A stretch of DNA of 64,000 nt from the NCBI RefSeq assembly GCF_029323795.1, contig NZ_CP119758.1, forward strand, positions 1,984,001 through 2,048,000. The letters are read 5' to 3'. Within the stretch, counting starts at the first letter, position 1; each line of letters opens with the position of its first letter. Below are positions 32,637 through 50,307 of this stretch, in pieces. Origin of the DNA: Zobellia alginiliquefaciens. Lineage in GTDB: Bacteria > Bacteroidota > Bacteroidia > Flavobacteriales > Flavobacteriaceae. The translations under genes were made by a program, and so were the position numbers. The notes beneath the pieces are model-generated. The model worked only from the letters and a program-made list of their open reading frames with translations. It had not been told where the DNA came from and did not search any database.

Positions 32637-35153
32637 TTACGCCCACTCTTTAGGCATTTTTTGTTCCCGAAGTGATACAAATTCAATGTTATCGTCCGGC
32701 TCGTCCGAATTAATGAAATGCGTATAACGCTCCCTTATCTCTGGTGTCTCTACGGCTTCTTTCCATTCGCACTTATAGGTGTTAACAAAATTCTGCATGT
32801 CCGTGTCCAATTCATCTACAATCCCTAGAGAATCATTAATTACCACATTTTTTAGGTAGGTTATGCCACCTTCCAGCTTTTCTAACCACGCTGCCGTTCG
32901 CGTAAGTGGTGGAGCAGTTTTTATGTAGAACATCATGAAGCGATCTACGTATTTTATGGCGGTTTCTTTATCTACTTTTTCAGCTAGTAATTCGGCATGT
33001 CTTGGAGTGGCTCCGCCATTTCCACCTACGTAGACGTTCCATCCGCCTTCAACGGCTATAAAACCGAAATCTTTGCAACGTGCTTCAGCACATTCACGGA
33101 TACATCCAGAAACTCCTCCTTTAAATTTGTGTGGAGAACGAATGCCTTTGTACCTGTTTTCAATTTCAATGGCAAAACTTACGCTTTCGTCCATTCCATA
33201 GCGGCACCATGTGGAGCCTACACAACTTTTTACCGTACGCAGTGATTTTCCATAGGCTTGTCCCGTTTCAAATCCTTCGGCTATGAGTTCTTCCCAAATA
33301 AGTGGAAGCTCGTGCAGTTTTGCCCCGAACATATCTATTCGTTGCCCCCCTGTAATTTTAGTGTACAGGTCGTATTTCTTGGCAATTCTACCCAAAGCCA
33401 TTAATTGTTTAGGCGAGATTTCTCCCCCGGCAACCCGTGGTACAACAGAGTAGGTTCCGTTTCGTTGTATATTGGCCAAATAACGGTCGTTACTATCCTG
33501 AATGGTTTCTTGTCGGTTTGCCGTTTCATTATAGATACTGGCAAAAATTGAAGCGGCGGCTGGTTTACAAACTTCGCAGCCGTGACCCTTGCCCACTTCA
33601 TCTAGCAATTGGTCGTAATCTTGAATACCTTTAAGTTTTACGATATCAAATAGTTCTTGACGCGAATAGTCAAAATGCTCACAAATACTTTCCTTAACGG
33701 TTTTTCCTAGTGTTTTTAGACTTTCCTTCACCAAATCTGCAACCATAGGTTTACAACCCCCGCAACCGGTAGTGGCTTTAGTGGCTTTTGCTACATCTTT
33801 AACGGTTTCGTTACCGTCATCAATAACGGAACAACAAACGGCACCTTTGGTAACAGCTTCGCAAGAACAGATTACGGCCGTATCCGGTAAATCCATGGCA
33901 CTACCAAAAGCCGAACCACCTTCGCCTCTGGTGCCAACAATGAGCTCTTCGGCATTATCCGGTAATGGAATATTGTTCAGGTACATTTGGTGTAGGATGC
34001 TATAATCTTCGGCATCGCCTACCATAATACCACCTAACAGTGTTTTGCCATCTAGGCTTACATTTATACGCTTGTAGAGTCCTTTGGTCTTGTTTTCGTA
34101 AATAATGGAAAGTCCTTTTTCCGCAGGCATATAAGGAACACCAAAACTTGCAACATCTACCCCAATTAGTTTCAGCTTGGTAGACATATCTATTTCCGAA
34201 CTCATTAAAACTTCATTGTTTTCTATAATCTGGTTCACGGCTACTTCTGCCATTTCATAACCCGGAGCAACCAGGCCGTATATCATTTGATTATAAAGAG
34301 CAACTTCTCCAATAGCGTATATATTGGGGTCTGAAGTTTGCATTCTGTCATTTACCACAATACCGCCACGGACGCCCATTGCCAGGTTACAGGTTTTGCC
34401 AAGTTCATCTCGTGGACGGATCCCGGCAGAAACTACTAGCATATCAACTTCAAGGGAATCATCCTCTCCAAAGTCCATTCCTGTAATGGCCCCATCACCT
34501 AAAATTCTATTGGTAGCCTTTCCTAAATGAATGTTGATGCCTATGTTTTCTAGGGTTAGCTGTAGAACATTGCTACTTCTGGAATCTAATTGTCTGGGCA
34601 TTAATTTGGGCGCGAACTCCACTACGTGAGGTTCTAGACCCATATCCATTACAGCTTTTCCTGCCTCTAAACCTAAAAGACCACCGCCCAATATGGCTGC
34701 ACGGCCATTGGGTTTCGCTGCTTTTATTTTTTCGGCATACCCTAGCATAGCTTCTAAATCCTCTATGGTACGGTATACAAATACGCCCTCTTTTTCCACT
34801 CCGTTTATAGGAGGGACAAACGGACTTGAACCTGTAGCCAGGACTAGGTAGTCATATTTATATTCTTTATCACTTCCCGTGGTTATGGTTTTTGTTTTAC
34901 GGTGTATATCCGTAACACGTTCGTTTACCACAAGTTCTATATTGTTTTCGGCATACCAACTAGCGGGAGCTAGTTCCAATGCTTTTGCATCTCTGTTTCC
35001 AAAAAACTCGCTGAGGTGTACGCGATCGTATGCGGCACGGGGCTCCTCTCCGAAAACAATAATCTTAAAATTTTCTGATTCTTCTTTAGCTGCGATTTTC
35101 TCACAGAACTTATATCCGACCATGCCGTTACCGACAACAATAATAGTTTTCAT
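32637..35153 (-). CDS. nirB: NAD(P)H nitrite reductase large subunit
   Basis: An 838-residue enzyme that reduces nitrite to ammonium. Domains in order: FAD/NAD oxidoreductase (1-400; VGNGMVGYKF, ATGSSPFVPP, AAILGGGLLGLEAG), two BFD-type [2Fe-2S] regions (CSCEAVT...GCGGCKP and GHGCEVCKP), then two ferredoxin-like halves and siroheme-[4Fe-4S] ligands in SCVGSTWCRYG and GCIRECAEARC. The ATG at 35153 begins MKTIIVVGNG, the usual start. A promoter with a TACGTAT-type inverted repeat lies upstream, shared with the divergent cobA gene. Confidence 0.95.
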   Translation of the reverse strand: MKTIIVVGNGMVGYKFCEKIAAKEESENFKIIVFGEEPRAAYDRVHLSEFFGNRDAKALELAPASWYAENNIELVVNERVTDIHRKTKTITTGSDKEYKYDYLVLATGSSPFVPPINGVEKEGVFVYRTIEDLEAMLGYAEKIKAAKPNGRAAILGGGLLGLEAGKAVMDMGLEPHVVEFAPKLMPRQLDSRSSNVLQLTLENIGINIHLGKATNRILGDGAITGMDFGEDDSLEVDMLVVSAGIRPRDELGKTCNLAMGVRGGIVVNDRMQTSDPNIYAIGEVALYNQMIYGLVAPGYEMAEVAVNQIIENNEVLMSSEIDMSTKLKLIGVDVASFGVPYMPAEKGLSIIYENKTKGLYKRINVSLDGKTLLGGIMVGDAEDYSILHQMYLNNIPLPDNAEELIVGTRGEGGSAFGSAMDLPDTAVICSCEAVTKGAVCCSVIDDGNETVKDVAKATKATTGCGGCKPMVADLVKESLKTLGKTVKESICEHFDYSRQELFDIVKLKGIQDYDQLLDEVGKGHGCEVCKPAAASIFASIYNETANRQETIQDSNDRYLANIQRNGTYSVVPRVAGGEISPKQLMALGRIAKKYDLYTKITGGQRIDMFGAKLHELPLIWEELIAEGFETGQAYGKSLRTVKSCVGSTWCRYGMDESVSFAIEIENRYKGIRSPHKFKGGVSGCIRECAEARCKDFGFIAVEGGWNVYVGGNGGATPRHAELLAEKVDKETAIKYVDRFMMFYIKTAPPLTRTAAWLEKLEGGITYLKNVVINDSLGIVDELDTDMQNFVNTYKCEWKEAVETPEIRERYTHFINSDEPDDNIEFVSLREQKMPKEWA

Positions 35154-35177
35154 AGGCTTCGATTTTAAACTACTTAG

Positions 35178-35185
35178 CAATATTA
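35178..35185 (-). promoter_or_regulatory. nirB: Candidate -7 element for nirB
   Basis: On the minus strand it reads TAATATTG, one mismatch from TAnnTTTG. It abuts and overlaps the right arm of the 7-2-7 operator as seen from nirB, the same arrangement as at nasA (ATACGTAATTTTA). Confidence 0.5.
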
Positions 35186-35199
35186 CGTATTAATACGTA
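35184..35199. promoter_or_regulatory. 7-2-7 operator between nirB and cobA
   Basis: TACGTAT-TA-ATACGTA, a perfect inverted repeat. It is adjacent to the nirB -7 element and about 40 bases upstream of the cobA -7 element. A further TACGTA (35227-35232) overlaps the cobA -7. Confidence 0.75.
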
Positions 35200-35230
35200 T
35201 ATATTTACTGTTTTTATGAAAATAATTACG

Positions 35231-35238
35231 TAGTTTTG
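35231..35238 (+). promoter_or_regulatory. cobA: -7 element for cobA
   Basis: TAGTTTTG, an exact TAnnTTTG inside ACGTAGTTTTG, a sequence repeated exactly at the narK promoter. Confidence 0.6.
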
Positions 35239-35268
35239 TTGAGGAATTACTAATACAACCCTTTAATA

Positions 35269-36051
35269 ATGTTAGGTATGGAAACAGTTAGAGAACCAAT
35301 AGTTACCTTAATAGGAGCAGGCCCAGGAAGCGCAGACCTTATAACAGTTAGGGGTTTGGTGGCTTTAAAGGCTGCGGATGTAGTGTTGTATGACGCATTA
35401 ATTGATGAGGACCTATTATTACAGATTGATGAAAGTATACCTAAGATATACGTAGGCAAACGATGCGGTAAACATTCGTTCACACAAGATGATATTAACA
35501 TGCTCATAGTTGAAAAAGCGTTTGAATACGGTCATGTGGTTCGTTTAAAAGGGGGAGACCCTTTTGTATTCGGTAGGGCTCATGAAGAAATTGATTATGT
35601 AGAATCTTTTGGTATTCCGGTAACGGTCGTTCCCGGAGTGTCAAGTGCAATAGCGGTGCCTTCCAGTCAGGGTATACCCATGACGCGCAGAGGTGTAAGT
35701 AGTAGCTTTTGGGTAATGACTGCAACAAAACGTGATGGCTCCTTTTCGGAAGATTTAAAGTATGCCTCCCAGTCTTCTGCAACTATGGTGATTTTGATGG
35801 GAGTAAGAAAGTTAAAAGAAATATCAGCTGAAGTCAGTAAATATAAAGGTTCATTAACTCCTATGGCTGTTATTCAAAATGGTACAATGCGTAATGAGAC
35901 TTGTAAGGTAGGAACTTTGGGCAGTATAAATTCTGAGATTTCGGATATAGATTTATCTAAGCCCGGTATTATTGTAATAGGAAATGTAGTCGCGGAACAT
36001 CCATCTTTTTTTGAGGAAGAGGTACAGCGCGTACTGCATTCGGGTATGTAA
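35269..36051 (+). CDS. cobA: Uroporphyrinogen-III C-methyltransferase
   Basis: A 260-residue SAM-dependent methyltransferase that makes precorrin-2 for siroheme. VTLIGAGPGSADLITVRG is the N-terminal SAM-binding motif, VVLYDALI the second, VRLKGGDPFVFGRAHEEIDY the substrate block, and VVPGVSSAIAVPSSQGIPMTRRG the conserved core. It works with the precorrin-2 dehydrogenase at 29021; in enteric bacteria these are one CysG protein. Divergent from nirB. The start MLGMET at 35269 could instead be the ATG three codons later. Confidence 0.93.
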   Translation: MLGMETVREPIVTLIGAGPGSADLITVRGLVALKAADVVLYDALIDEDLLLQIDESIPKIYVGKRCGKHSFTQDDINMLIVEKAFEYGHVVRLKGGDPFVFGRAHEEIDYVESFGIPVTVVPGVSSAIAVPSSQGIPMTRRGVSSSFWVMTATKRDGSFSEDLKYASQSSATMVILMGVRKLKEISAEVSKYKGSLTPMAVIQNGTMRNETCKVGTLGSINSEISDIDLSKPGIIVIGNVVAEHPSFFEEEVQRVLHSGM

Positions 36052-36095
36052 AATGATACGGTTCAGAGCGCGATACATATAGTACATAATTCGCT

Positions 36096-36147
36096 AAAAT
36101 CGCTGCATATATTGCTTATTACAGGCAGTGTATACAGCGATTTTTTT
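36096..36147 (+). terminator. Intrinsic terminator after cobA
   Basis: AAAATCGCTG pairs with CAGCGATTTT over a structured 29-base interior and is followed by a T run. Confidence 0.7.
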
Positions 36148-36264
36148 AGATATAATTCGATATTATCAAATTTTCCTAGTCTTTTTTTGGAATAACTGAT
36201 TTTTCTCCGCTTCCACCTTCTATCCTCGTAAAAATACTTAGAATTTAGGCGATATTTTAGATAA

Positions 36265-36280
36265 TACGTAGTAATACGTA
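36265..36280. promoter_or_regulatory. 7-2-7 operator upstream of narK
   Basis: TACGTAG-TA-ATACGTA, one mismatch from the perfect inverted repeat. A third TACGTA (36287-36292) overlaps the -7 element that follows. Confidence 0.72.
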
Positions 36281-36290
36281 TAAATATACG

Positions 36291-36298
36291 TAGTTTTG
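36291..36298 (+). promoter_or_regulatory. narK: -7 element for narK
   Basis: TAGTTTTG in the context TACGTAGTTTTGAG, same as at cobA. The narK ATG is 30 bases downstream. Confidence 0.6.
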
Positions 36299-36327
36299 AG
36301 TATCGTTAAACTTTAAACATCAGTATT

Positions 36328-37749
36328 ATGGAAACTCAATCTAAAAAAGCGACCAGCTTAAAACTGACCGATATTAAAAGTGTGCCAATTCGTACATTTT
36401 GGATTACTTCAATAGCGTTCTTTATTTGCTTTTTTGCTTGGTTCGGTATTGTGCCATTTATGCCGGACGTTGTAAAGGACTTAGGGCTGACCCCTGAACA
36501 AAAATGGAATTCCATTATTTTGGCAGTAACAGGAACGGTATTCGCAAGGTTGCTAATTGGTAAATTATGTGATAAGTACGGCCCAAGAATATGTTACACC
36601 TATTTATTGATTTTGGGCGCTATACCTGTAATTCTACTTGGGTTTGTGCAAACCCCGACACAGTTTTTAATCTGTCGTTTGTTTATAGGTTTTATTGGGG
36701 CATCGTTTGTAATTACTCAGTTTCATACTTCAATCATGTTTGCATCTAATATTGTGGGTACAGCAAATGCAACATCTGCCGGATGGGGAAATTTAGGTGG
36801 TGGAGCAAACCGTTTAGGTATGCCGTTGATTGCCGCTGCGGTGGTGAGTTTTGGAGTTGCCGATGAGGTTGCTTGGAGATATTCAATGATGATTGCGGGT
36901 GTAATTGCTATGCTTATGGGGCTAGTGTACTACTTTTTTACACAAGACACCCCAGAAGGTAATTTTGCCCAACTCAAGAAGGAAGGTAAAATGCCGACAC
37001 TTAAAAAAGATGAGGAAAGCTTTGCAAGCGTATTAAAAGATTATAGAGTGTGGATTTTGTTCGTCATTTATGCAGCTTCATTTGGAATGGAGCTTACCGT
37101 CTATGGAACGATGGACGATTACTTACAGAATACATTTGGACTCACCCGAACCACGGCAGGAAATCTGGTACTCTCGTTTGCATTGATGAATATTTTTGCC
37201 AGAACATTGGGAGGCTTTTTTGGGGATAGATTTGGGAAGTTAAAAGGCCTAAGAGGAAGAGTTATGTTTTTAGCTCTTATTCTTGCTATTGAGGGCTGTA
37301 TGTTGACCATTTTTTCAACAACAACAAGTATTGCGTTCGGTATCTTATTTTTGATTGCCTTTAGTTTGTCTGTTCAAATGGCTGAAGGAGCTACTTTTTC
37401 AGTAGTACCGTTTATAAACAAAAAAGCTATTGGTTCTATCTCTGGTATTGTGGGTGCGGGTGGTAATGTAGGGGCTTTTGTGGCTGCTATGTTCCTTAAA
37501 TCCAAGTCGGCATTGGCCGAGACCCAGGCCATAGCGGAAAATACGGCTTTAGGAGAAGAGGCGGTTAGAACAGCTCAAGCAGCAGCAGCATCTACTGCCG
37601 TATCCGCTGGGTACTTGGTTATTGGTTTATGTGTGGTTCTTACCGCTGGATTATCGTTGGCCATAAAATTTTCTACTGAAGACGAGGAAGCAACTGCACG
37701 AGAAATGAAAAGAACTAAAACTCCTGATTACGCTTTAGGTAACAAATAA
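36328..37749 (+). CDS. narK: NarK-type nitrate/nitrite MFS transporter
   Basis: A 473-residue, 12-helix transporter of the nitrate/nitrite porter family. It has an aromatic-rich first helix with FFAWFGIVPFMP, RLLIGKLCDKYGPR with the conserved Arg in helix 2, and the NNP signature SAGWGNLGGGANRL in helix 5, with a second Gly-rich GIVGAGGNVGAF in helix 11. It imports nitrate and may exchange nitrite. It has its own promoter with the 7-2-7 operator and is followed closely by the FNR-like gene. Confidence 0.94.
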   Translation: METQSKKATSLKLTDIKSVPIRTFWITSIAFFICFFAWFGIVPFMPDVVKDLGLTPEQKWNSIILAVTGTVFARLLIGKLCDKYGPRICYTYLLILGAIPVILLGFVQTPTQFLICRLFIGFIGASFVITQFHTSIMFASNIVGTANATSAGWGNLGGGANRLGMPLIAAAVVSFGVADEVAWRYSMMIAGVIAMLMGLVYYFFTQDTPEGNFAQLKKEGKMPTLKKDEESFASVLKDYRVWILFVIYAASFGMELTVYGTMDDYLQNTFGLTRTTAGNLVLSFALMNIFARTLGGFFGDRFGKLKGLRGRVMFLALILAIEGCMLTIFSTTTSIAFGILFLIAFSLSVQMAEGATFSVVPFINKKAIGSISGIVGAGGNVGAFVAAMFLKSKSALAETQAIAENTALGEEAVRTAQAAAASTAVSAGYLVIGLCVVLTAGLSLAIKFSTEDEEATAREMKRTKTPDYALGNK

Positions 37750-37785
37750 GATGCGATTTTGATTTCTACCCTGACAAATAACAAT

Positions 37786-38517
37786 ATGGCCAGTGCCGAC
37801 GAAAGTACGGTTAATACGGCATGCGCTATTTGTTCAAATGAAAATTGCTTGATAAAGAACAACTTAAAGCAAAATAAAACGGTTTCTCTGTTTACACAAG
37901 AAAGAAAAGAGTTCACTTGTAAGAAAGGGCAGCAGTTTATAATTGAGGGTGCTCCGGTTAATGGCTTGTTCTTTGTGCTCTCCGGGAAAGTAAAGGTTTT
38001 TAGAACGGGTATTAATGGTAGGGAGCAAATCGTTCGCTTTGCCAATTCTGGTGAAATAATCGGGCACAGAGGTTTTGGCACCCAAGAATACTACCCTATT
38101 GGTGCCATGGCTCTAGAAGATACCAAACTTTGCTATTTCTCAAAGGATAATTTACAAGAAGTGCTACTGATGGCGCCAAGCTTCACTTTTGATTTAATGT
38201 TGTTTTATGCCAATGAATTGAACAGAAGCGAGGCCAAGGTAAAATCTATTTCCCAAATGACGGTTAGAGAACGTGTTATTGATACATTGATCTATGTAGA
38301 ACGAAAGTTTGGCCAAAGAAATAATTTTATTGATATCGTTCTCAGTAGACGTGAATACGCCAATTATACTGGTACTACCGAAGAGCAAGTCATTCGCGTT
38401 TTCTCCGCCTTGAAGAAAGAAGGTCTCATTACTGCTAAAGGAAAACGGATAGGAATTAGTGAAATTTCTCTTTTAAAAGATGAAATATCAGAGCACAACT
38501 TTTATCTGGATAGTTAG
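37786..38517 (+). CDS. Crp/Fnr-family regulator with FNR-like cysteines
   Basis: A 243-residue regulator. Residues 13-21 form CAICSNENC, a C-x2-C-x4-C set; Cys116 in EDTKLCYFS aligns with FNR Cys122, and the Cys13-Cys116 distance (103) is nearly that of E. coli FNR Cys20-Cys122. The cyclic-nucleotide-like barrel (45-135), a dimer helix, and a winged HTH, RREYANYTGTTEEQVIRVFSALKKEG, follow. The recognition helix has E-x-x-x-R (Ile instead of the FNR Ser), so its site may differ. The start is ATG at 37786. The gene is 36 bases after narK, probably co-transcribed. An Fe-S oxygen or NO sensor controlling nitrate use is inferred. Confidence 0.85.
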   Translation: MASADESTVNTACAICSNENCLIKNNLKQNKTVSLFTQERKEFTCKKGQQFIIEGAPVNGLFFVLSGKVKVFRTGINGREQIVRFANSGEIIGHRGFGTQEYYPIGAMALEDTKLCYFSKDNLQEVLLMAPSFTFDLMLFYANELNRSEAKVKSISQMTVRERVIDTLIYVERKFGQRNNFIDIVLSRREYANYTGTTEEQVIRVFSALKKEGLITAKGKRIGISEISLLKDEISEHNFYLDS

Positions 38518-38562
38518 TCTCAACATCGCTTTACAATCATAAATTTTATCGTTAAGTACTAC

Positions 38563-38569
38563 TACGTAT
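38563..38569. promoter_or_regulatory. Single TACGTAT half-site, distal to nrtA
   Basis: TACGTAT about 200 bases upstream of nrtA, preceded by a partial TAAGTAC. It may be chance, since the hexamer is expected now and then in A+T-rich DNA. Confidence 0.3.
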
Positions 38570-38710
38570 CTATGTGCGCATGGATGCTATAGGTTAATAT
38601 TTTGATTATTAGTTGTTTATGTCGAATGCATGATTTTTAGCAGGTTTATATATGGTGTAAAAAGAGAGTTTAACCTGTCTTATTCCATATGACGAAAAGT
38701 AAAATACGTA

Positions 38711-38718
38711 TACATTTG
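38711..38718 (+). promoter_or_regulatory. nrtA: Candidate -7 element for nrtA
   Basis: TACATTTG, an exact TAnnTTTG, directly after a TACGTAT half-site (38705-38711). The 7-2-7 operator lies just downstream, so it would overlap the transcription start. Confidence 0.45.
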
Positions 38719-38725
38719 CTTAAAA

Positions 38726-38741
38726 TAAGTATTAATACGTA
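38726..38741. promoter_or_regulatory. 7-2-7 operator upstream of nrtA
   Basis: TAAGTAT-TA-ATACGTA, one mismatch from the perfect repeat, followed by ACGTAGTTAATAT, which resembles the -7 regions of cobA and narK. It ends 23 bases before the nrtA ATG. Confidence 0.68.
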
Positions 38742-38764
38742 GTTAATATAAAAACCATACTATT

Positions 38765-40150
38765 ATGAAAACCATTTTAACAAAAGCATCATTACTGGCA
38801 ACTATAGCTGCAGTAGTTATGGCTTGTGGAGGAAAAGAAACAAAAAAGACCGAAGCAGCCGCAACGGAAGAAACTGTGGCATCTAAGACCAAGATGTTAG
38901 ACATAGAAAAGCCACAACTTACCTTCGGTTTTATAAAATTGACGGATATGGCCCCTTTGGCCATTGCTAAAGAGAAAGGATTTTTTGAAGACGAAGGATT
39001 GTTTGTTTCCGTTGAAGCACAATCAAACTGGAAAAACGTTTTAGATCGTGTTATAGACGGTCAGTTAGATGGTTCTCATATGTTAGCGGGTCAGCCTATT
39101 GCTGCAGGTGCTGGATTTGGTAGACAGGCCAAACTGGTTACTCCTTTTTCTATGGATTTAAACGGAAATGGTATTACTGTTTCCAACGACGTTTGGTCTA
39201 AAATGAAACCGAATGTGCCGGCAGATTCTGAAGGAAAACCAATACATCCCATCAAAGCCGATGCCTTAAAACCTGTTATTACCGAATACAAGAACAGTGG
39301 AAAACCTTTTAAAATGGGAATGGTGTTTCCTGTTTCCACGCATAATTACGAAATACGCTATTGGTTGGCCGCTGCAGGTATCCATCCAGGGATGTATACT
39401 GCTGATAACGTACAAGGTCAAATTGATGCGGAAGTATTACTTTCTGTTACGCCTCCACCACAAATGCCGGCCACGCTGGAATCTGGTACTATTTATGGCT
39501 ATTGTGTAGGTGAGCCTTGGAACCAACAAGCAGTTTTTAAAGGTATCGGGGTTCCTGTTACTACCAATTATGATATCTGGAAAAACAATCCGGAGAAAGT
39601 ATTTGTAATGACCGAAAAGTTCGTTGCCGATAATCCAAATACTGCCATCGCGGTTACCAAAGCTTTAATACGTGCGGGTAAATGGTTAGATGAACCTGCT
39701 AATAGACCGGAAGCCGTTAAAATATTATCTATGTCCCAATATGTAGGTGCCCCGGAAGAAGTGTTGGCCAACTCCATGACCGGTACGTTCGAATTTGAAA
39801 AAGGGGATAAGCGTAAAATGCCGGACTTTAATGTATTCTACAAGTATAACGCTACCTACCCTTTCTATTCCGACGGTATTTGGTTCTTAACTCAGATGCG
39901 CAGATGGGGTCAAATTCCTGAAACCAAATCAGCTGAATGGTATGGAGAAACCATCAAAGATATTTACCGACCTGATATTTGGAAAAAAGCAGCGAACCTG
40001 CTAGTGGCCGAAGGTCAAATTCCTGCAGCCGATGTTCCCGAAACGGATGGATATAAAAGAACAACTACTGATTTTATTGATGGTACATCGTTTGACGCGA
40101 AAGACCCTATTGGGTATATCAATAGTTTCTCCATAGGAAACAAAGATTAA
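38765..40150 (+). CDS. nrtA: Nitrate ABC transporter substrate-binding lipoprotein
   Basis: A 461-residue lipoprotein (VVMACGGKE lipobox). [28 protein letters not shown] begins the binding protein and matches NrtA/CmpA, and the [12 protein letters not shown] and [13 protein letters not shown] blocks follow. [13 protein letters not shown] and [13 protein letters not shown] complete the family pattern. NrtA binds nitrate at the outer face of the inner membrane. It is first in a three- or four-gene transporter operon and has the 7-2-7 operator in its promoter. Confidence 0.94.
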
Positions 40151-40184
40151 GTTTTAGTGAAAATCGAAGCAAAATTATAGGATT

Positions 40185-41285
40185 ATGGAACAAGATATCA
40201 CATTAAAGAAAGAAGGGCAGGGTTTCGCATTTTTGAAGCCGCTTGTGGCAAAACTGACACCTAAATTCCAAAAGGGAAAAATATTCTCATCATTGAAAAA
40301 TACGGGAATTACCGTACTATCCGTGCTTCTGTTTATAGGTCTATGGCAATTGGGTTCTAAAGCGCTTTACAATAAGGAGGCCGATTATAAAATTGAGAAG
40401 GCACTTACTGAAAGAGGTCAAGAGGCTGCTGATGCGGAACGGGCTTGTATTGAATCCGGTGATAGCAGTTGTCAGCCAAATACACTGCCTTCCCCATCTC
40501 AGGTATGGAATTCGTTGCAATCATTAATTGCGGACCATAAAGTAATTACTGCGGATAAAGCCGCTTTTGTACAAAAAATGGCGGCAACCAATGCAAAGTT
40601 GGTTGCACAAGGTAAAGATGCTATTGTTTACACGGGCAGAGCTTCTTTTGTGGATATCGTGCTAACCAGTATTAAAACGGTTTTTGCGGGCTTCTTGCTA
40701 GCACTTTTAATTGCGGTGCCTATCGGTATAATAATAGGGTTGAGTCCGTCTTTGCGCAGTGCTTTCAACTGGTTTATTCAAATTTTTAAACCGGTATCTC
40801 CTGTAGTGTGGTACTTGCTGGTTTTTATGATAGTGAAGACCCTATATATTGGCGATAGTTCGGACAATGCTTTTGTGATTTCTTTTATAAGTGTAGGCTT
40901 GTGTGCCATGTGGGCTACACTTGTTAATACCGCCATGGGTGTTGCTTCGGTTGATAAAGATTACATAAACGTGGCCAAAGTTTTAAAGTTGGGCACTTTT
41001 CAGAAAGTTTTTAAAGTGATTTTACCGTCCTCTCTACCCTTGATTTTTACGGGATTACGAATTACACTTTCCGTAGCATGGATGGTATTGATCGCTATTG
41101 AACTTTTGGCACAGAGCCAAGGGTTGGGCTTGTTCGTTTGGGAGGAATTTCAAAATGGTGCCAATGATTCAAATGCTAAGATTATTGTGGCAATGTTCGT
41201 AATCGGTATCATCGGGTTTCTTTTGGATAGGCTAATGTTATCGGTACAAAACTTGGTTTCGTTCAACAAAAATGAAATGGCGTAA
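40185..41285 (+). CDS. nrtB: Nitrate ABC transporter permease
   Basis: A 366-residue inner membrane permease, BPD_transp_1 type. One N-terminal helix (about 38-58) is followed by an unusually long soluble insert (60-145), then five helices with the ATPase-coupling EAA-like motif [36 protein letters not shown]. The insert, rich in Asp, Glu and Ala with [12 protein letters not shown], is longer than in cyanobacterial NrtB. It lies between nrtA and the ATPase genes and its stop overlaps the upstream extension of the next frame. Confidence 0.92.
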
Positions 41286-41301
41286 TCCTAAAAAAAAGCA
41301 A

Positions 41302-42141
41302 ATGGCATATCTAGAACTGAATAATGTATATAAAAGTTACGGGAAGGGCGAGAATGCTACCAACGTACTTTCAGATATCAATTTACAAATTGAAGAAGGC
41401 GAGTTTGTTGCTATAGTTGGGTTTACTGGTAGTGGAAAAACTACGTTGGTGAATCTTATCAACGGACTTTTAGAACCGACCAGTGGCGAGGTTTTGTTTA
41501 AGGGCGAACCGGTTGTGGACACCAGTCATGAACGGGGCGTGATTTTTCAAAACTACTCTTTGCTGCCATGGTTAACAGTAGAACAAAATGTGTATATGGC
41601 CGTGAAGGAGGCTTTTCCAAAAGAGAGCAAAGCAGTCCTAAAACAAAGGGTAAAAGACTATGTAGAAATGGTTAGTCTTAGCCCTGCAATTCACAAAAGA
41701 CCTAAGGAGCTGTCCGGGGGTATGCGCCAGCGGGTATCGGTTGCAAGGGCACTGGCCATGAATCCGGAAATGATAATTATGGATGAGCCGTTAGGGGCCT
41801 TAGATGCGTTAACACGAGGAAATTTACAGGATGAAATATTGAATATTTGGAGCAAGGACAAACGTACCGCCCTATTGATTACCAATGATGTTGATGAGGG
41901 AATTTATATGGCAGATAGAATCATTCCTTTAAAACCAGGTCCTAATGCCACGTTGGGTCCGGAGTTTAAAATAGAAATTGACCGCCCAAGGGATAAAACG
42001 GCTCTAAACGATAATCCAAACTTCAAAAAAACCAGAAATGCGATTATTGAATATTTAATGGACATCGGAGACCAACGAAAATCAGTTTCTGAGACAGAAT
42101 ATGTTTTGCCTGAAATAGCACCAAAAAGCTTTGTAGCCTAA
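41302..42141 (+). CDS. nrtC: Nitrate ABC transporter ATP-binding protein, first of two
   Basis: A 279-residue ATPase. Walker A is GFTGSGKTT (40-48), the signature is [15 protein letters not shown], and Walker B is [12 protein letters not shown]. The switch His is replaced by Asn195 in [18 protein letters not shown], so its own catalytic site is probably weak. The ATG at 41302 is the start of [14 protein letters not shown]; a longer frame overlaps nrtB. It should pair with the next gene's product as a heterodimer. Unlike cyanobacterial NrtC it has no fused substrate-binding domain, so the gene name marks the role only. Confidence 0.88.
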
Positions 42142-42151
42142 AACGAACATT

Positions 42152-42979
42152 ATGCCAGAGATAAAAGAAAAAAACGAATTGGGAACCATGGAGAATGGTA
42201 TACTTTATCCTTCTCCGGTCATGTTGGATTTACATGATCTTAAAAAGGTGTACCCAACGCCAAAAGGCGATTATGTTGTTCTTGAACATCTAAACCTTCA
42301 GATTATGAAGGAAGAGTTCGTAACCATTATTGGCCATTCCGGTTGTGGAAAAACAACCATGCTCTCCATGATTGCAGGGCTAAACCCAATTTCCGGGGGT
42401 AACATTTCCGTTTTAGGAAATCCTGTAAAAGGACCTGGTCCGGACAGGGGTGTCATCTTTCAATCCCCAAGTTTAATGCCTTGGATGACCGCTTTGGAAA
42501 ATGTTCTATTGGGGGTGAATCAAGTTTTTCCGCACGCCACGAAAACGCAAAGACAGGATATTGCCAAATACTATCTAAACAAAGTGGGTCTTGACGGCGC
42601 TTTTTATAAAAAGGCATCTGAGCTTTCTCAAGGTATGCAGCAAAGGGTAGGTATTGCAAGAGCTTTCGCAATCAAACCCAAAGTATTGCTTCTAGATGAA
42701 CCTTTTGGTATGCTAGATTCATTAACGAGAGGCGAACTACAGGATATCCTTATCGAAATATGGAATAAAGAAAAAATAACCGCGGTAATGATAACCCATG
42801 ATGTGGATGAGGCCATATTCTTGGCAGATAGGGTTGTAATGATGACGAGTGGTCCAAGGGCAAAAATAGGAGACGTGCTCAACATCGATTTTGAAAGACC
42901 ACGTACCCGTAAATCCGTTTTAGAACATGATGATTACTACACGTACAGAAAACATTTGATTGACTTTTTAGAGCATTGA
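42152..42979 (+). CDS. nrtD: Nitrate ABC transporter ATP-binding protein, second of two
   Basis: A 275-residue ATPase with Walker [10 protein letters not shown], signature [15 protein letters not shown] (Gln in place of the first Gly), Walker [13 protein letters not shown] and an intact switch His in [15 protein letters not shown]. The 20 residues before [11 protein letters not shown] are extra. It starts ten bases after the first ATPase and ends the importer operon. With the Asn-carrying partner it suggests a heterodimer with unequal ATP sites. Confidence 0.9.
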
Positions 42980-43102
42980 TTATTAACCAAACTTTCAATT
43001 AAACCTCGCATATGTTGTAAGTCACAATACTACCTAACACCGACCAATATTAAGTTTTGGCGAATAACATATGAATTTTAAATAAAGATAAAATAGACAC
43101 CG

Positions 43103-44407
43103 ATGAAAAAACAGTACACATTTATAACCCTATTTGTCCTATCGATTCAATTTGCTACTGCGCAATTTGTCCTTGATGGAGAATTTAAGCCACGTACCGA
43201 ATACCGAAATGGTTTCGGAAGTATTATTCCAGATGCCGCGGATCCAGGTTTTGGCATTTCTACCCGTTTACGTTTAAATGCGGGCTACCAAACTGAAGCC
43301 TTTAAGTTTTATATGAGCCTACAAGATGTGATGGTTTGGGGAGAGAACAGACAATTAAAACCAGAGGACAGTAACAATTCATTTTCTGTATTTCAAGCAT
43401 GGGCGGACATTAAATTAGCTGAGGGTTTTTCCACAAAAATAGGTCGCCAGATGCTGGTATACGATGACCAGCGTATCCTTGGTGGAGTTGATTGGGCCAT
43501 GCAGGCACGTAACCATGATGCTGCCTTACTGCAATACAAAAAGGGGAAATTTATGATGGATCTAGGTCTTGCCTTTAATCAGGATTTTACGGCAACCACC
43601 GCAAATCCAGGAGGGTTTCAATCCGTAGGTACTGCCTATAACACTACAGGGTTCTTTTCGTACAAAAGCATGCAATACCTCTATTTGAGACACAAAGGAG
43701 AGGCATTTTCCGCAAGCGGATTGGTAATGAACAACGGTTTCCAAAACTTTACAGGAGACGCAGATGCCCAAGTTGCAGACGGTGTAAGCAATTTGGTTAC
43801 GCTGGGAACGCATTTAAATTATAAAAAAGGGAGTTTTGGAGCTGCACTTAATGCGTATTTGCAGACTGGTGAGCGTCAAAACAGCGTAGAAGTTAGCGGG
43901 GCATATCTTTTAGGGTTGGACCTTAGCTACAAAGTATCAAAAGGTATATCTCTGGGATTAGGGGCAGAAATCATTAGCGGAAACGATACTGGTACAGCTG
44001 ACAAGACCGAGGCTTTCTTCCCGCTTTACGGTACCAACCACAAATTCAATGGTTTTATGGATTATTTCTACGTAGGTAACCATGCTAATTCTGTTGGTCT
44101 AACGGATATACATGCAAGTGCTAAGTTCGCTTTGGGCGAAACTTCTAGCCTACTGGTAAAGGTCTTAAACTTTAGCGGTGAGCAAGAATTGGCGAGTGGA
44201 GAAAAATCCTTGGGAACGGAAGTAGATTTGGTATTTACCAAAAGCTTCAAAGGTTATGGGTTGGCCATAGGGTATTCCCAAATGTTTGCCAGTGATGGTA
44301 TGTACGAACTAAAAGGAGTAACGGAAGACGCTGCGGCAAGTAGTCAGAACTGGGCCTGGGTACAATTAACGATGAAACCTAAATTTTTAAATACCGCCAA
44401 GCAATAA
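43103..44407 (+). CDS. Alginate-export type outer-membrane porin, putative nitrate porin
   Basis: A 434-residue protein with a cleavable signal peptide (ending TAQF). It has the alternating strand pattern of an outer-membrane beta-barrel, and FKPRTEYRNGFGSII, RLRLNAGYQTEAFKFYMSLQDVMVWGENRQ and FSTKIGRQMLVYDDQRILGGVDWAMQARNHDAALLQY match the Alginate_export barrel family. Its place after the nitrate importer suggests it lets nitrate or nitrite cross the outer membrane, which is inference. A terminator follows. Confidence 0.85.
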   Translation: MKKQYTFITLFVLSIQFATAQFVLDGEFKPRTEYRNGFGSIIPDAADPGFGISTRLRLNAGYQTEAFKFYMSLQDVMVWGENRQLKPEDSNNSFSVFQAWADIKLAEGFSTKIGRQMLVYDDQRILGGVDWAMQARNHDAALLQYKKGKFMMDLGLAFNQDFTATTANPGGFQSVGTAYNTTGFFSYKSMQYLYLRHKGEAFSASGLVMNNGFQNFTGDADAQVADGVSNLVTLGTHLNYKKGSFGAALNAYLQTGERQNSVEVSGAYLLGLDLSYKVSKGISLGLGAEIISGNDTGTADKTEAFFPLYGTNHKFNGFMDYFYVGNHANSVGLTDIHASAKFALGETSSLLVKVLNFSGEQELASGEKSLGTEVDLVFTKSFKGYGLAIGYSQMFASDGMYELKGVTEDAAASSQNWAWVQLTMKPKFLNTAKQ

Positions 44408-44432
44408 GTTATTTTAAGATGCTTCGATAGGG

Positions 44433-44467
44433 CCGTTACAACCTGTTTGTTGTAGCGGTTCTTTTTG
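44433..44467 (+). terminator. Intrinsic terminator after the porin gene
   Basis: CCGTTACAAC pairs with GTTGTAGCGG (one G-T pair) around a six-base loop, followed by TTCTTTTTG. Confidence 0.75.
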
Positions 44468-44526
44468 TTTTAAACGGATGGTGAATCGGTTTAGTGGTTT
44501 GTTCAACTCCCTTTATAAAAATCGAT

Positions 44527-44534
44527 TATATTTG
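44527..44534 (+). promoter_or_regulatory. -7 element for the response regulator gene
   Basis: TATATTTG, an exact TAnnTTTG, directly followed by the 7-2-7-like site. Confidence 0.6.
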
Positions 44535-44550
44535 TACGTATAATTACGCA
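44535..44550. promoter_or_regulatory. 7-2-7-like operator over the response regulator start site
   Basis: TACGTAT-AA-TTACGCA, with two mismatches in the right arm. It begins immediately after the -7 element, so it would cover the transcription start and could give autorepression. Confidence 0.55.
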
Positions 44551-44554
44551 TATT

Positions 44555-45229
44555 TTGGATCAAACAACAAGTATTATTTTAGCGGACGATCATTCTTTGG
44601 TTCGCGACGGCATTAGGGCTTTATTGGAAAGTGAATCCGATTTAAAAGTTATTGGCGAAGCTTCAGACGGTTTGGAGGCTATTGAAATGGTGAACGAAAA
44701 GTCTCCTGATCTATTGATTATTGATATAAGAATGCCAAGAATGACCGGTATTGAAGCGGTTGAAAAACTAAGCGCCCAAAACTCACCCGTAAAATGCATC
44801 ATTCTATCTATGCACGATTCGGAAGAATACATTCTACAATCGGTAAGCGCAGGTGCACGTGGTTATTTGTTGAAAGACACCGGAAAAACCGAGTTTATTA
44901 AAGCCATTCATGCGGTTCGTGAAGGAGGTAAGTACTATAGTGGCGATATTTCTAACGTCTTAGTGAACAACCTGCTCAATTCTAACGGTTCTAAAGCCGT
45001 AGAAGCCCCTAAAAAAACTGTTCCCACGAGTAATCCTTTTGATTTGACCAATAAAGAACTTCAGGTTTTGGAATTGGTTTTATCTGGGTTGACAAATAAG
45101 CAGATTTCCGAAAAACTTCAGAATAGCAAGCGTACAGTAGAAACACACCGCTTTAATTTGATGCGTAAAATGGAAGTCAAGAATTTAATAGACCTTTCAA
45201 AAAAAGCACAACAGTTTAATTTGGTCTAG
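44555..45229 (+). CDS. NarL/FixJ-type response regulator, nitrate
   Basis: A 224-residue regulator. The receiver domain has acidic Asp11-Asp12, phospho-acceptor Asp57 in LLIIDIRMP, and Lys in LLKDTG. The C-terminal LuxR-type HTH is LTNKELQVLELVLSGLTNKQISEKLQNSKRTVETHRFNLMRKM. The start is TTG at 44555, as no ATG exists before IILADDHS. No kinase is adjacent, and the NarX-like kinase at 29598 is the likely partner. The protein should bind the TACGTAT-type inverted repeats in this island; that match is inferred from the NarL-style 7-2-7 geometry. Confidence 0.92.
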   Translation: MDQTTSIILADDHSLVRDGIRALLESESDLKVIGEASDGLEAIEMVNEKSPDLLIIDIRMPRMTGIEAVEKLSAQNSPVKCIILSMHDSEEYILQSVSAGARGYLLKDTGKTEFIKAIHAVREGGKYYSGDISNVLVNNLLNSNGSKAVEAPKKTVPTSNPFDLTNKELQVLELVLSGLTNKQISEKLQNSKRTVETHRFNLMRKMEVKNLIDLSKKAQQFNLV

Positions 45230-45278
45230 GACTATGAAGCACAACTAAAATTGCTCTAATTCAGTACGGCAACTGTAC

Positions 45279-46622
45279 ATGAAACAAGCCATTTTTTATC
45301 ACATCTATCCATTAGGTCTTTTAGGGACAAAAAGAACCAATGACTTGGTTTCTGAACCAGTTAATCGTTTTTCAGAACTTAGTTCTTGGTTTAAATATAT
45401 AAAAGATCTGGGCTGTAATGCACTTTATCTTGGACCAGTTTTTGAATCTACTAGTCATGGATATGATACTATTGACTATTATTCAGTGGATAGGCGGTTG
45501 GGTGATGATACTTCTTTAATCAATTTTATAAAAAATGCCCATGAGAAGGGCATTAAGGTTGTTTTAGATGGGGTTTTCAATCACGTAAGTAGAGATTTCT
45601 TCGCTTTTAAAGATCTACAGAAACACGGGAGGAATTCAAAATATATTGAATGGTTCGTGAATGTGGATTTTAAAAAAAGAAGTCCTCTTAAAGATTCTTT
45701 TGATTATGATACCTGGAGTGGTTATTATCAACTGGTAAAACTCAACCTTAAAAATAAGAAGGTCCGTGATTATCTTTTGGGTGCCGTTGCCAAATGGATA
45801 GAAACCTATAAAATAGATGGTCTGCGTTTAGATACTGCGGATGTTCTTGATTTTGATTTTATGAAAGAACTCTCTTTCTTCTGTAAAAGTCATAATCCTA
45901 ATTTTTGGCTTATGGGAGAAGTAGTTCATGGGAATTATAACCGTTGGATTACCAATGCCTATCTTGACTCTGTTACCAATTATGAGTACCACACTCCTAT
46001 TTACGAAAGTTTCAATTTGGATGATTTTAGTAAGATTGCAGTAATTTTAAAACGGCAGTTTGGTCCAAAAGGAGTGTATAACAATTTGTCTCTCTATAGT
46101 TTTGTAGATAATCATGATGTAAACCGTGCTGCAAGTACGCTCAACAAACCGGAACATCTATTCCCGCTATACCTTCTTTTATTTACCCTTCCTGGGATAC
46201 CGGCCATCTATTATGGCAGTGAATGGGGTTTTGAAGGAAAGAAAACGGCCCATAGTGATGATGTATTACGTCCGCAAGTGGCACTTAATTCCATAGAAAA
46301 ACAGGCAAAACACCCCAAGTTGTTCAATGCAGTAGAACGGTTTATTTCCATTAGAAAAAACTGTGAGGCACTTGCAAACGGTATTTATGCAACGTTATTG
46401 GTTAGGAAGAAGCAAGTGGCATTCTCCAGAATTTTTAAGGGTAAAACGGTAATCATAATTGTGAATTCCTCACACAAATCGGTTATGGTCAATATTCCTC
46501 TAAAAAATTCATCCGGAGAAAAGTTCCTAGACCTTTTAAATAGCGGATATACTGTAACTTCAGGCAAAAATGGGCTCTCTGTAGAAGTGCCATCTTGTTG
46601 GGGCCGCATCTTAAGCCATTGA
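45279..46622 (+). CDS. Alpha-amylase family (GH13) glycoside hydrolase
   Basis: A 447-residue cytoplasmic enzyme without a signal peptide. GH13 conserved regions are visible: VVLDGVFNHVSRD, the nucleophile Asp in IDGLRLDTADV, the acid/base Glu in FWLMGEVVHG, and the transition-state Asp in YSFVDNHDVNR. IYYGSEWGFEG resembles maltogenic or trehalose-type enzymes. A role in the nitrate island is not obvious: it could mobilise intracellular glucan to supply reductant or carbon skeletons. It is transcribed in the same direction as the regulator, 49 bases before it. Confidence 0.88.
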   Translation: MKQAIFYHIYPLGLLGTKRTNDLVSEPVNRFSELSSWFKYIKDLGCNALYLGPVFESTSHGYDTIDYYSVDRRLGDDTSLINFIKNAHEKGIKVVLDGVFNHVSRDFFAFKDLQKHGRNSKYIEWFVNVDFKKRSPLKDSFDYDTWSGYYQLVKLNLKNKKVRDYLLGAVAKWIETYKIDGLRLDTADVLDFDFMKELSFFCKSHNPNFWLMGEVVHGNYNRWITNAYLDSVTNYEYHTPIYESFNLDDFSKIAVILKRQFGPKGVYNNLSLYSFVDNHDVNRAASTLNKPEHLFPLYLLLFTLPGIPAIYYGSEWGFEGKKTAHSDDVLRPQVALNSIEKQAKHPKLFNAVERFISIRKNCEALANGIYATLLVRKKQVAFSRIFKGKTVIIIVNSSHKSVMVNIPLKNSSGEKFLDLLNSGYTVTSGKNGLSVEVPSCWGRILSH

Positions 46623-46694
46623 TCGAAAACGAGTTAATCGGTGTTTTTTTTGTCGATGTATTAGAAAATCATCAAACTATTACGGATAAAATAC

Positions 46695-46710
46695 TACGTA
46701 TATATACGTA
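46695..46710. promoter_or_regulatory. nasA: 7-2-7 operator upstream of nasA
   Basis: TACGTAT-AT-ATACGTA, a perfect inverted repeat. TAATTTTA (46709-46716), one mismatch from TAnnTTTG, overlaps its right end, so the bound regulator would sit against the polymerase site. Confidence 0.72.
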
Positions 46711-46765
46711 ATTTTATAACTTGCTGTATCTAATTTTGGTGTCTATCATCAAAAAGGAAAATGCA

Positions 46766-49700: not shown

Positions 49701-50296
49701 ACCCATCTGTTTTTGCTTTGGGCGAAATTGCAGAATTCAACAATGCGCTTTTCGGAATTACCTCTGCAGCGGAGCAGCAAGCGGATATAGCCGCCAATTT
49801 TATTTTAGGCGATTATAGCAGTATATACTATGGCTCTGTTCTTATGAATATTCTTAAGTTCGAGAATCTTGATCTGTGCAGTGTCGGAATGGTAAACGCA
49901 CCTTCTGGCGATAGCAGTTATGAAGAGATTATTTTAATGGATGTCAGCAAGCGTTTTTACAAAAAATGCATCGTAAAGGATGATACCCTAAAAGGTGCTA
50001 TTCTAATGGGCGATAAAAATGAGTTCGCAGAGTTTAAGCGCTTGATCGAAGAAGAAATTGAACTTTCCGAGAAGCGAAACGAACTACTGAGGGGCGCGAC
50101 AAACACTGCTCCGTTAAAGGGTAAACTAGTGTGCTCTTGTAGTCAAGTAGGAGAAGGAAATGTTACCGATGCCATTGCTGGAGGATGTTCGGATTTTAAT
50201 GAGCTCTGTTCTCAGACCGGAGCAGGATTAGGCTGTGGTAGTTGCAAACCAGAGGTAAAGGCCTTATTGAACAAACAATTACAATTAGCAAATTAA
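46766..50296 (+). CDS. nasA: Assimilatory nitrate reductase fused to flavin reductase and BFD domain
   Basis: A 1176-residue fusion. Residues 1-700 are the molybdopterin catalytic part: [4Fe-4S] ligands C11, C14, C18 and C46 (CSYCGVGC..MLCSKG), the Mo-ligand Cys140 in NSRLCMSS, and a C-terminal molybdopterin-binding domain (LPMHWGRILNNDFGRANNLTNDL). From about 705 (VVVIGAGAAAYRF) is an NAD(P)/FAD oxidoreductase like NasB or the NirB front part. At about 1120-1165 is a BFD [2Fe-2S] domain, CSCSQVGEGN..GLGCGSCKP. In most bacteria these are separate NasA and NasB/C proteins. Electrons would pass from NAD(P)H to molybdenum within one chain. The ATG at 46766 is chosen for the MLKKKTHKTVCSYC start. 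Confidence 0.94.
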   Translation: MLKKKTHKTVCSYCGVGCGILVDIDNKGKIEVDGDPDYPSNKGMLCSKGRNLNYVAQDTSDRILHPEMRWSRNHPLQKVSWDAAFERAAAVFKSIIAKHGPDSVGFYVSGQCLTEEYYLVNKITKGFIGTNNIDTNSRLCMSSAVVGYKKTLGEDSVPISYEDIELADCFLIAGANPAWCHPILYRRLEQHKEDNPNVKIIVVDPRKTQTCASADLHLQILPGTDVILFNAIARLLIEKKKIDKNFIKKHTSNFEACKESAFSLSLRQAAEKCDVPVSDIRKAAQYIGDANKFISMWTMGLNQSVIGVSKNVSLLNLSLLTGQIGKPGCGPFSLTGQPNAMGGREVGGMASLLAAHKDLGNPQHRKEVSDFWGGKEINSEPGYTATEMFDALESGKLKAIWIICTNPAVSMPNVKKVEKALKNAAFVVVQDISHNSETTKFADLLLPAAGWLEKEGTMTNSERRISYLPKVIDPPAEALPDAEILWRFAQAMGFEGFDYNNASEVYDEHCLLTKGTNIDITGLSYERLKNEGSFQWPVPHNTHPGTPRLFEDFSFYTNDKKAHFNAPQSLYNKSEETDIDFPLVLNTGRVRDQWHTRTKTGKVKRLLTHIPQPYLEMNKVDAYLRKLKEGDIAVIKSRRGEVQVKVKINFDIRERVVFLPMHWGRILNNDFGRANNLTNDLVDPVSKEPDFKYCAVQVEKYVKPAQKVVVIGAGAAAYRFIQSYREKNKKDELHVFSKEKDPFYNRVLLPEYVSDELSWEALEKLKVGELKKLNVTLHSGIGVNDINTSLKQVTDSAGLIHSYDLLIMATGSRAFVPSEVQINLPGRFTMRERGDADKLKKYLEETGLPATEQHVVIVGGGLLGLELAAALKKIHINISIVQRAPRLMERQLDRVASRLLAEDVTERNINLYFDNEVSTVFEEKENPFQLLVNLKTGRTIQCNAIVYAIGTRPNIELAKKANLVTRRGVRVNSYLQTNDPSVFALGEIAEFNNALFGITSAAEQQADIAANFILGDYSSIYYGSVLMNILKFENLDLCSVGMVNAPSGDSSYEEIILMDVSKRFYKKCIVKDDTLKGAILMGDKNEFAEFKRLIEEEIELSEKRNELLRGATNTAPLKGKLVCSCSQVGEGNVTDAIAGGCSDFNELCSQTGAGLGCGSCKPEVKALLNKQLQLAN

Positions 50297-50307
50297 AAAT
50301 CGGTATT

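Follow-up and report, generated by a model that had tools for sequence, protein, structure and literature searches.

A nitrate-sensing two-component system of the Bacteroidetes, narHK/narRR, has been described (PMC8199190), and the locus examined here resembles it in having a sensor kinase of the PilJ/NarX type with a PAS domain and no HAMP or GAF, encoded beside nitrate genes, and a LuxR-type regulator; no operator is given in the available part of that article, nor are targets listed or the sign of control stated, and these are what we propose here. Escherichia coli NarL has a GerE-type output domain like that of the regulator at this locus, binds inverted heptamers two bases apart and represses from such a 7-2-7 site at the start point, but the engineered site has the heptamer TACCCCT (PMC4549865, available sections), the recognition helix is another one and most of the sites here lie on the -7 box. 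Rhizobial FixJ has a similar recognition helix (SPRTVEVHRAN in 1x3u, compared with RTVETHRFN or RTAEVHRFN here) and the half-site TAMGTA; selection by systematic evolution of ligands by exponential enrichment gave GTAMGTAG and its fixK site is TAAGTAATTTCCCTTA (PMC4999443, available sections). FixJ controls the Crp/FNR gene fixK and, in the genomes that we call type B (types A and B are labels by kinase similarity), a site lies before crp in 19 of 24 crp genes, but the FixJ palindrome is imperfect, its kinase senses oxygen, its targets are different ones and in Sinorhizobium meliloti the sites at fixK are located from -69 to -31. The locus is a nitrate island of Zobellia alginiliquefaciens, lying in a stretch of 64,000 nucleotides (nt) of contig NZ_CP119758.1 (the window; the genome is a single contig of 5,066,785 bases), and its subject is a palindrome shared by five promoter regions, which is probably the operator of the island's own two-component system. 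The sensor family is already known; the operator and its target list are the part put forward as new, and among the titles and abstract openings listed in searches of open-licence literature none describes such a palindromic operator, narRR/narHK being mentioned in one paper.

The original prediction placed five inverted repeats of the form TACGTAT-N2-ATACGTA in this island and a motif scan recovered every one: TACGTATTAATACGTA between the divergent nirB and cobA genes (35184-35199, no mismatch), TACGTAGTAATACGTA before narK (36265-36280, one mismatch), TAAGTATTAATACGTA before nrtA (38726-38741, one mismatch), TACGTATAATTACGCA before the response regulator gene (44535-44550, two mismatches) and TACGTATATATACGTA before nasA (46695-46710, no mismatch). 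First-order Markov simulations gave a mean of 0.08 matches with up to two mismatches (maximum 1 in 60 simulations) against the five seen in the window, and no exact palindrome against the two seen. Allowing three mismatches adds matches at 19691, 38553 and 49671, and the resulting eight are weak evidence, as the shuffle mean is 2.39 and eight were reached in 2 of 100 shuffles. Written as TACGTA-N4-TACGTA, the exact motif occurs three times in the forward genome (reversed control 0), each time inside the nitrate island. Eight further copies have one mismatch, three of them in the island (38553, 38726 and 44535) and five elsewhere, of which the one inspected (TTCGTATGAATACGTA) lies inside an open frame; at up to two mismatches there is no genome-wide excess (193 copies against 225 for the control). 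The copy at 38553-38568 (TAAGTACTACTACGTA) is additional to the five and directly follows crp.

Among 397 genomes of the family the kinase was found in 92 (threshold 1e-80) and NirB in 93 (1e-200), the 92 being nested in the 93 with G390 as the one exception. Loci were fetched from 64 of the 92 kinase-positive genomes (all 26 that lack Crp included; the other 28 were not fetched) and from G390, giving 65 genomes and 84 loci, and promoters were counted only where the upstream region was complete in the fetched stretch. Enrichment of the motif before nirB, narK, nrtA and nasA of other Flavobacteriaceae, which the original prediction had made its check, was borne out in these 65 genomes. A refined motif, TAMGTA-N4-TACKTA, is present exactly before nirB in 60/62 promoters (absent from G346 and G228), cobA in 30/33, narK in 38/42 and nrtA in 36/38, and less regularly before nasA (25/46), the response regulator gene (26/59), crp (20/36) and the porin gene (6/49), and it was found before none of the kinase, DUF4202, nirD-like, nrtB, nrtC and nrtD genes. 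Sites within one mismatch of the TACGTA form were counted at nirB in 45/62, cobA in 28/33, narK in 24/42, nrtA in 24/38, nasA in 21/46, the regulator in 32/59, crp in 8/36 and the porin in 3/49, with none before the kinase (56 upstreams), DUF4202 (59), nirD-like (63), nrtB (39), nrtC (36) or nrtD (36) genes. When all 6-base inverted repeats with gaps of 0-20 were scanned de novo, TACGTA or TAAGTA at gap 4 came top for nirB, narK, nrtA, nasA, crp, cobA and the regulator, and other gaps mostly had counts of 0-7, the exceptions being gap 6 (12) and gap 16 (11) at narK, which reflect extra half-sites. A second set of 80 loci from named genomes, which overlaps the first, has the refined motif at nirB in 51/51, cobA in 51/51, narK in 45/46, nrtA in 44/45, nasA in 70/73 and crp in 1/23, with none for six other gene classes and a reversed control of 0 in all 13 classes. 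A search of the class found the kinase in 6/295 genomes, four of them in the family; the only two outside it are G659, with sites before nirB, narK and the porin gene, and G599, where the regulator and the porin-nrt genes are preceded by sites and nirB by one that differs in a single letter. The motif is thus, as had been proposed, common to the nitrate-gene promoters of the island in 7-2-7 geometry, and it is kept throughout the family as well as in two genomes from outside it. Porin upstreams with the refined motif were confined to type B (6/22; type A 0/27), so that in some genomes the porin gene may be transcribed from a promoter of its own.

The motif also follows the kinase. In a survey of 149 genomes TAMGTATNNATACKTA occurs in 30 of the 31 that are kinase-positive (absent from G030), with 90 sites against 4 for the reversed control, and in 15 of the 118 that are kinase-negative, with 25 sites against 18. 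Fifteen of these 25 sites were inspected; three are inside a gene frame, five lie between convergent frames and seven are beside or before genes with no recognised nitrate role. Four non-island sites of kinase-positive genomes (L264-L267) are inside a gene or adjoin unrelated genes, and altogether the 20 non-island loci inspected (19 sites in other genomes, with or without the kinase, and one in the Zobellia genome) showed no recognised nitrate gene. Whole-genome counts of exact TACGTA-N4-TACGTA are uninformative by themselves, for the sequence is present in 75/149 genomes, in many as repeats such as TACGTAGAACTACGTA; G130 and G107 have 19 and 9 matches, many of them copies of TACGTAGAACTACGTA, which is probably a repeat family. 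G033 has no nitrate kinase yet carries four TAMGTATNNATACKTA sites (L248-L251; control 0), three of the four between frames. In G109, G118 and G148 (L254, L257 and L258) TACGTATNNATACGTA lies between convergent frames near genes named from sequence as a LuxR-type regulator and odhB-like, where it may be a terminator or serve an unrelated use.

The kinase of the window (29598-31451, minus strand) has Pfam matches to PilJ (the NarX-type sensor), PAS, HisKA_3 and HATPase but none to HAMP, and carries the nitrate motif I-N-V-A-G-F-Q-R; the sensor motif N-x-[AS]-G-x-x-R is found in the 46 of 58 kinases that are readable at the N-terminus (44 with A, 2 with S; 12 are unreadable). The regulator was found in 9/9 genomes searched for it. 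In G036 kinase and regulator are on different contigs, and the regulator match is preceded by an exact site that ends 32 nt away. The nirB gene of G390 has an exact site too; next to it is a PAS-HisKA_3-HATPase kinase with a diverged regulator (43%) at its side.

That the palindromes sit on core promoters was overlooked by the original prediction, as were extra TACGTA half-sites that lie on the -7 boxes of cobA and narK and abut that of nrtA. Start mapping in Flavobacterium psychrophilum gave TAnnTTTG at -12 to -5 (PMC9723704, available part), and all starts used here are predicted from this box in this position. At nirB a TAnnnTTG box begins on the palindrome's last TA in 56/60 promoters (41 with exact TAnnTTTG), so that the centre is at about -18.5; in the window the predicted box TAATATTG (35178-35185, minus strand) shares that TA with the operator. 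The box offset at cobA is 33 in 23/30 promoters, and in the window the palindrome is centred at about -51.5 of cobA while a lone half-site TACGTA lies on its predicted -7 box TAGTTTTG (35227-35238, plus strand). At nirB a further half-site 27 bases upstream, which in the window is this cobA one, was present in 24/27 of type A and 6/33 of type B. The offset is 0 in 20/38 and 12 in 9/38 narK promoters, with a third half-site on the predicted narK box TAGTTTTG of the window (36287-36298, plus strand), and it is 0 in 14/20 crp promoters. Regulator genes mostly have offsets of 8-11 (16/26), the -22 layout (4/26) being that of the window, where the palindrome starts at the base after the predicted box TATATTTG (44527-44534, plus strand) and hence covers the predicted start, with its centre at about +4. 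At nrtA a half-site TACGTA is followed by the predicted box TACATTTG (38705-38718, plus strand; start about 38723; TACnTATATATTTG is conserved) and the operator is downstream of the predicted start; TACKTATATATTTG followed by the palindrome centred at about +11 was found by a strict pattern in 25/30 nrtA promoters of Crp-bearing genomes and in 0/8 of Crp-lacking ones. At nasA an exact TAnnTTTG stands at offset 0 in only 4/25 promoters, which makes the start there uncertain. Judged by these predicted starts, the sites are not placed as classical upstream activator sites, since most overlap the -7 box or the start itself, and control at the core promoter, possibly by repression, is more probable than activation from a classical upstream position.

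The NarL-type regulator that the original prediction noted in the island (44555-45229, plus strand) does have a receiver (Response_reg, PF00072) and a GerE/LuxR helix-turn-helix domain (PF00196), and its best full-length match in the PDB is NarL (1a04). The idea that it reads a NarL heptamer with one changed letter could not be upheld. The repeats are two inverted heptamers two bases apart (hexamers with a gap of 4), which is the NarL geometry. The E. coli NarL heptamer consensus is TACYNMT, with C or T at position 4, but both TACGTA and TAAGTA have G there, and the NarL stretch STVKVHVKH, which holds its DNA contact residues, aligns with RTVETHRFN here but does not match it. The recognition helix SKRTVETHRFN is closer to those of EsrB, SsrB and FixJ, which are also the nearest PDB entries for the output domain (NarL lies lower), and the half-site TAMGTA that stands at 60/62 nirB genes as TAMGTA-N4-TACKTA matches the FixJ selections. 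The helix is SKRT[VI]ETHRFN in 27/27 type-A regulators and RTxEVHRFN in all but two single-residue variants of the 30 readable type-B ones (of 32; x is A in 25). At position 3 of the motif the fraction with C is 0.79 among 91 type-A sites and the fraction with A is 0.73 among 122 type-B sites, in a weight matrix whose core letters are fixed by the pattern and which is informative only for positions 3, 7-10 and 14. The phospho-acceptor region has the pattern [DE]-[IVL]-x-M-P in 57/59 regulator homologues.

We propose that a dimer of this NarL/FixJ-family regulator would bind the 16-bp TAMGTAT-NN-ATACKTA, one subunit per heptamer and with a FixJ-like helix, and that the sites would be operators of the nitrate-sensing two-component system of narHK/narRR type. 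It would control nirB-nirD (nirB at 32637-35180, minus strand, named from the original prediction and from sequence), cobA, the narK-like MFS transporter (36328-37749, plus strand, MFS_1), the nitrate ATP-binding cassette transporter nrtABCD (38765-42979, plus strand; NMT1_2 for NrtA, nrtB-D named from sequence), the nasA-type nitrate reductase with the downstream nitrite/sulfite reductase-rubredoxin gene (46721-51747, plus strand; Molybdopterin, Fer2_BFD, NIR_SIR_ferr and Rubredoxin), its own gene and also crp in most type-B genomes. The sequences show the conservation of the sites, their positions, their co-occurrence and their independence from Crp, while binding, phosphorylation, a response to nitrate and the sign of control are inferred.

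That the palindromes arose by chance in AT-rich DNA, or as an artefact of promoter sequence, has next to no probability; TACGTA is self-complementary and often has its last TA in common with the -7 box, but with 23 control palindromic hexamers no gene class had more than one match, save the porin with 4, compared with 45/62 at nirB, and together with the dominance of gap 4 in the inverted-repeat scan and the named-locus counts with a reversed control of 0 this refutes it. A second candidate reader is the Crp/FNR-family protein of the island (37759-38517, plus strand; cNMP_binding and HTH_Crp_2). Because the site fits both the 7-2-7 arrangement of NarL and, as ACGTA-N4-TACGT, the spacing of Crp/FNR, genomes with one candidate reader and not the other were compared. 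A Crp orthologue (threshold 1e-60) is present in 66 of the 92 kinase genomes and lacking in 26, all of which keep at least one exact refined site before a target gene. The refined motif is found in these at nirB in 25/26, cobA in 18/19, narK in 15/15, nrtA in 8/8, nasA in 14/22 and the regulator gene in 8/26, and one-mismatch TACGTA sites at nirB in 19/26, narK in 10/15, nrtA in 8/8, nasA in 12/22 and the regulator gene in 10/26 (G390, whose Crp status was not tested, is in the Crp-positive column for the one-mismatch counts and set apart in the refined-motif split). G001 has neither crp nor nrtABCD and keeps sites at nirB/cobA, narK, the regulator gene and nasA; G143 has nrtA and no Crp, with one-mismatch sites at nrtA and nirB. 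Crp was dropped as the reader on these grounds and because Crp genomes have a separate conserved site at -41.5 of nrtA. In its favour are the spacing, which fits Crp/FNR geometry with a G at four bases from the dyad, the E and R retained in its helix and its presence with nrtA in 23/24 nrtA genomes, and since more distant Crp/FNR paralogues remain in the Crp-lacking genomes one of those might be the reader. The Crp helix, though, stays close to EEQVIR in types A and B while the motif shifts, and we think it very improbable that this protein reads the palindromes.

Another, unlinked transcription factor common in these genomes is an unlikely reader, if a less remote one. Other LuxR-type regulators occur in 9/9 genomes searched and Crp/FNR paralogues in most, and binding by the island regulator is itself a proposal; against such a factor, the motif tracks the nitrate kinase, kinase-negative genomes being near the control (25 and 18 sites), and none of the 20 non-island loci has a recognised nitrate gene. 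Of the candidates, the NarL-type response regulator fits best as the reader and is, in our judgement, quite probably the right one. The original prediction's choice of it therefore stands in so far as the regulator or kinase is present wherever motif-bearing islands were checked, also without Crp, and falls as regards the NarL code as worded. Several points weigh against this assignment. Sites are mostly missing from type-B nasA (6/27; type A 19/19), nasA following narK in many loci, and at the regulator gene itself the refined motif is exact in no more than 26/59 (4/27 in type A), or 7/79 in the named loci (37/79 with one mismatch). The joint shift of regulator helix and half-site between types A and B is only suggestive because it is mostly one clade split, and is thus weak. 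Seven kinases (G002, G237, G389, G082, G228, G383 and G180) match only from about residue 190-200 of 617 (frames of about 460-480 amino acids), so that their sensor part is missing or unrecognised and not every kinase has the nitrate sensor; the five of them that were inspected (G002, G237, G082, G228 and G180) keep a nirB site within one mismatch, as does G390, whose kinase has no PilJ match. Another conserved regulator, of a kind not searched for, could read the sites.

The proposed regulator would work mainly by occupying the core promoter, with repression and autorepression, and we propose this because the palindrome or a half-site is on the -7 box (nirB, cobA, narK and crp) or at or after the start (nrtA, about +11; regulator gene, about +4). 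Repression as the sign of control is given slightly better than an even chance on the positions of the predicted starts, and activation slightly worse than even. Direct activation from a core-promoter-proximal position instead of repression is a reading that we consider possible but would not favour. In its favour, nitrate should induce nitrate genes; among 60 nirB promoters the share of G is 0.00-0.18 at every one of the ten positions preceding the palindrome, so that a -33 TTG is mostly missing; and the -7 box tends to lie at offsets of 0, 8-12, 19-21 and 33, close to full turns of the helix. Repression of assimilation genes, moreover, would require a kinase of opposite sign to E. coli NarX, a further point against the repressor. 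Activation is disfavoured by nrtA and the regulator gene of the window, whose palindromes coincide with or follow the predicted start, and by E. coli NarL, for which a 7-2-7 site at -4/+6 mediates repression of frdA (PMC4549865, available sections).

At nrtA a further site is visible. In the aligned nrtA promoters there is an ATG-N8-CAT element, and TG-N8-CA is centred exactly at -41.5 in 22/28 Crp-bearing genomes (background 0.31% per position; 2 of the 30 Crp-bearing promoters, G002 and G127, have no recognisable layout and were left out) and in 0/6 Crp-lacking genomes with a recognisable -7 box (G164 and G211 of the eight are without one). Within 150 nt of the start the eight Crp-lacking nrtA promoters hold only two TG-N8-CA (G172 and G341), and at nirB, narK, crp, cobA and the regulator gene no position holds more than two. 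In the named loci the nrtA layout is present in 29/30 with Crp and in 3/15 without Crp in the stretch read, and the -41.5 site in 17/29 and 3/3 of these respectively, which is weaker than in the first set; a looser test on the other nrtA layout was unhelpful (TG-N8-CA within 80 nt in 5/11 Crp-less named loci, about 3 being expected from background). A second peak at -86.5 (18 promoters) is an inverted repeat AACCTG...CAGGTT after crp, probably a terminator. In the window the predicted site is CCTG-N8-CATA (a 16-mer, 38674-38689).

The position -41.5 is that of a class II activator. Crp resembles FNR and HcpR in its CRP fold, in three N-terminal cysteines and one central one, and in TG-N8-CA at -41.5, and differs, so far as a protein known from sequence can be compared, in a half-site nearer ATG than TTGAT and in its link to an assimilatory transporter. 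It aligns with FNR and the four FNR cluster cysteines are present in its sequence; C12, C15 and C20 are found in 34/34 readable sequences of 36 homologues, and C44 and C115 in 33/34. Compared with the FNR site TTGAT-N4-ATCAA, the nrtA site keeps the TG-N8-CA core and its first base is mostly A (0.62 of 32 sites), not T. HcpR of Bacteroides is covered by PMC1274295, in the available part of which there is no such site. The FNR-like Crp, found with nrtABCD, would activate nrtA from TG-N8-CA at -41.5, and on this sequence evidence it probably does activate nrtA from a site of its own.

The fuller model we advance tentatively, at a little under even probability. In it the assimilatory nitrate genes of Bacteroidota would form a regulon under a nitrate regulator with a FixJ code, whose palindrome is locked on the -7 box recognised by the primary sigma factor (the centre at about -18.5, two bases being shared); the regulator would be either a repressor relieved by nitrate, its kinase having the reverse sign of NarX, or an activator from a position not known for any NarL/FixJ member. 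The nrtABCD promoter would be lac-like, the FNR-type activator being placed at -41.5 and the regulator's operator at about +11, and in most type-B genomes the gene for the FNR protein would itself belong to the regulon. If true, this would give a readable operator and a target list for nitrate assimilation in marine flavobacteria, tie NarX-type sensing to a FixJ-type DNA code and separate the roles of two regulators in one island. The promoter layout is open to testing, and the motif could be used to predict nitrate control in unannotated genomes.

The island also holds DUF4202, a NirD-like gene, cobA, an alginate-export-like porin gene and an alpha-amylase gene, several of these names being taken from sequence. 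The DUF4202 gene (31479-32072) adjoins the kinase or the NirD-like gene in those inspected islands that show the kinase. The same 16 bases as in the 44535-44550 operator are found in G001, which is of the same genus. The alpha-amylase-family gene (45279-46622) lies between the regulator gene and nasA in the window, in G001 and in 2/16 loci inspected, and is odd cargo for a nitrate island.

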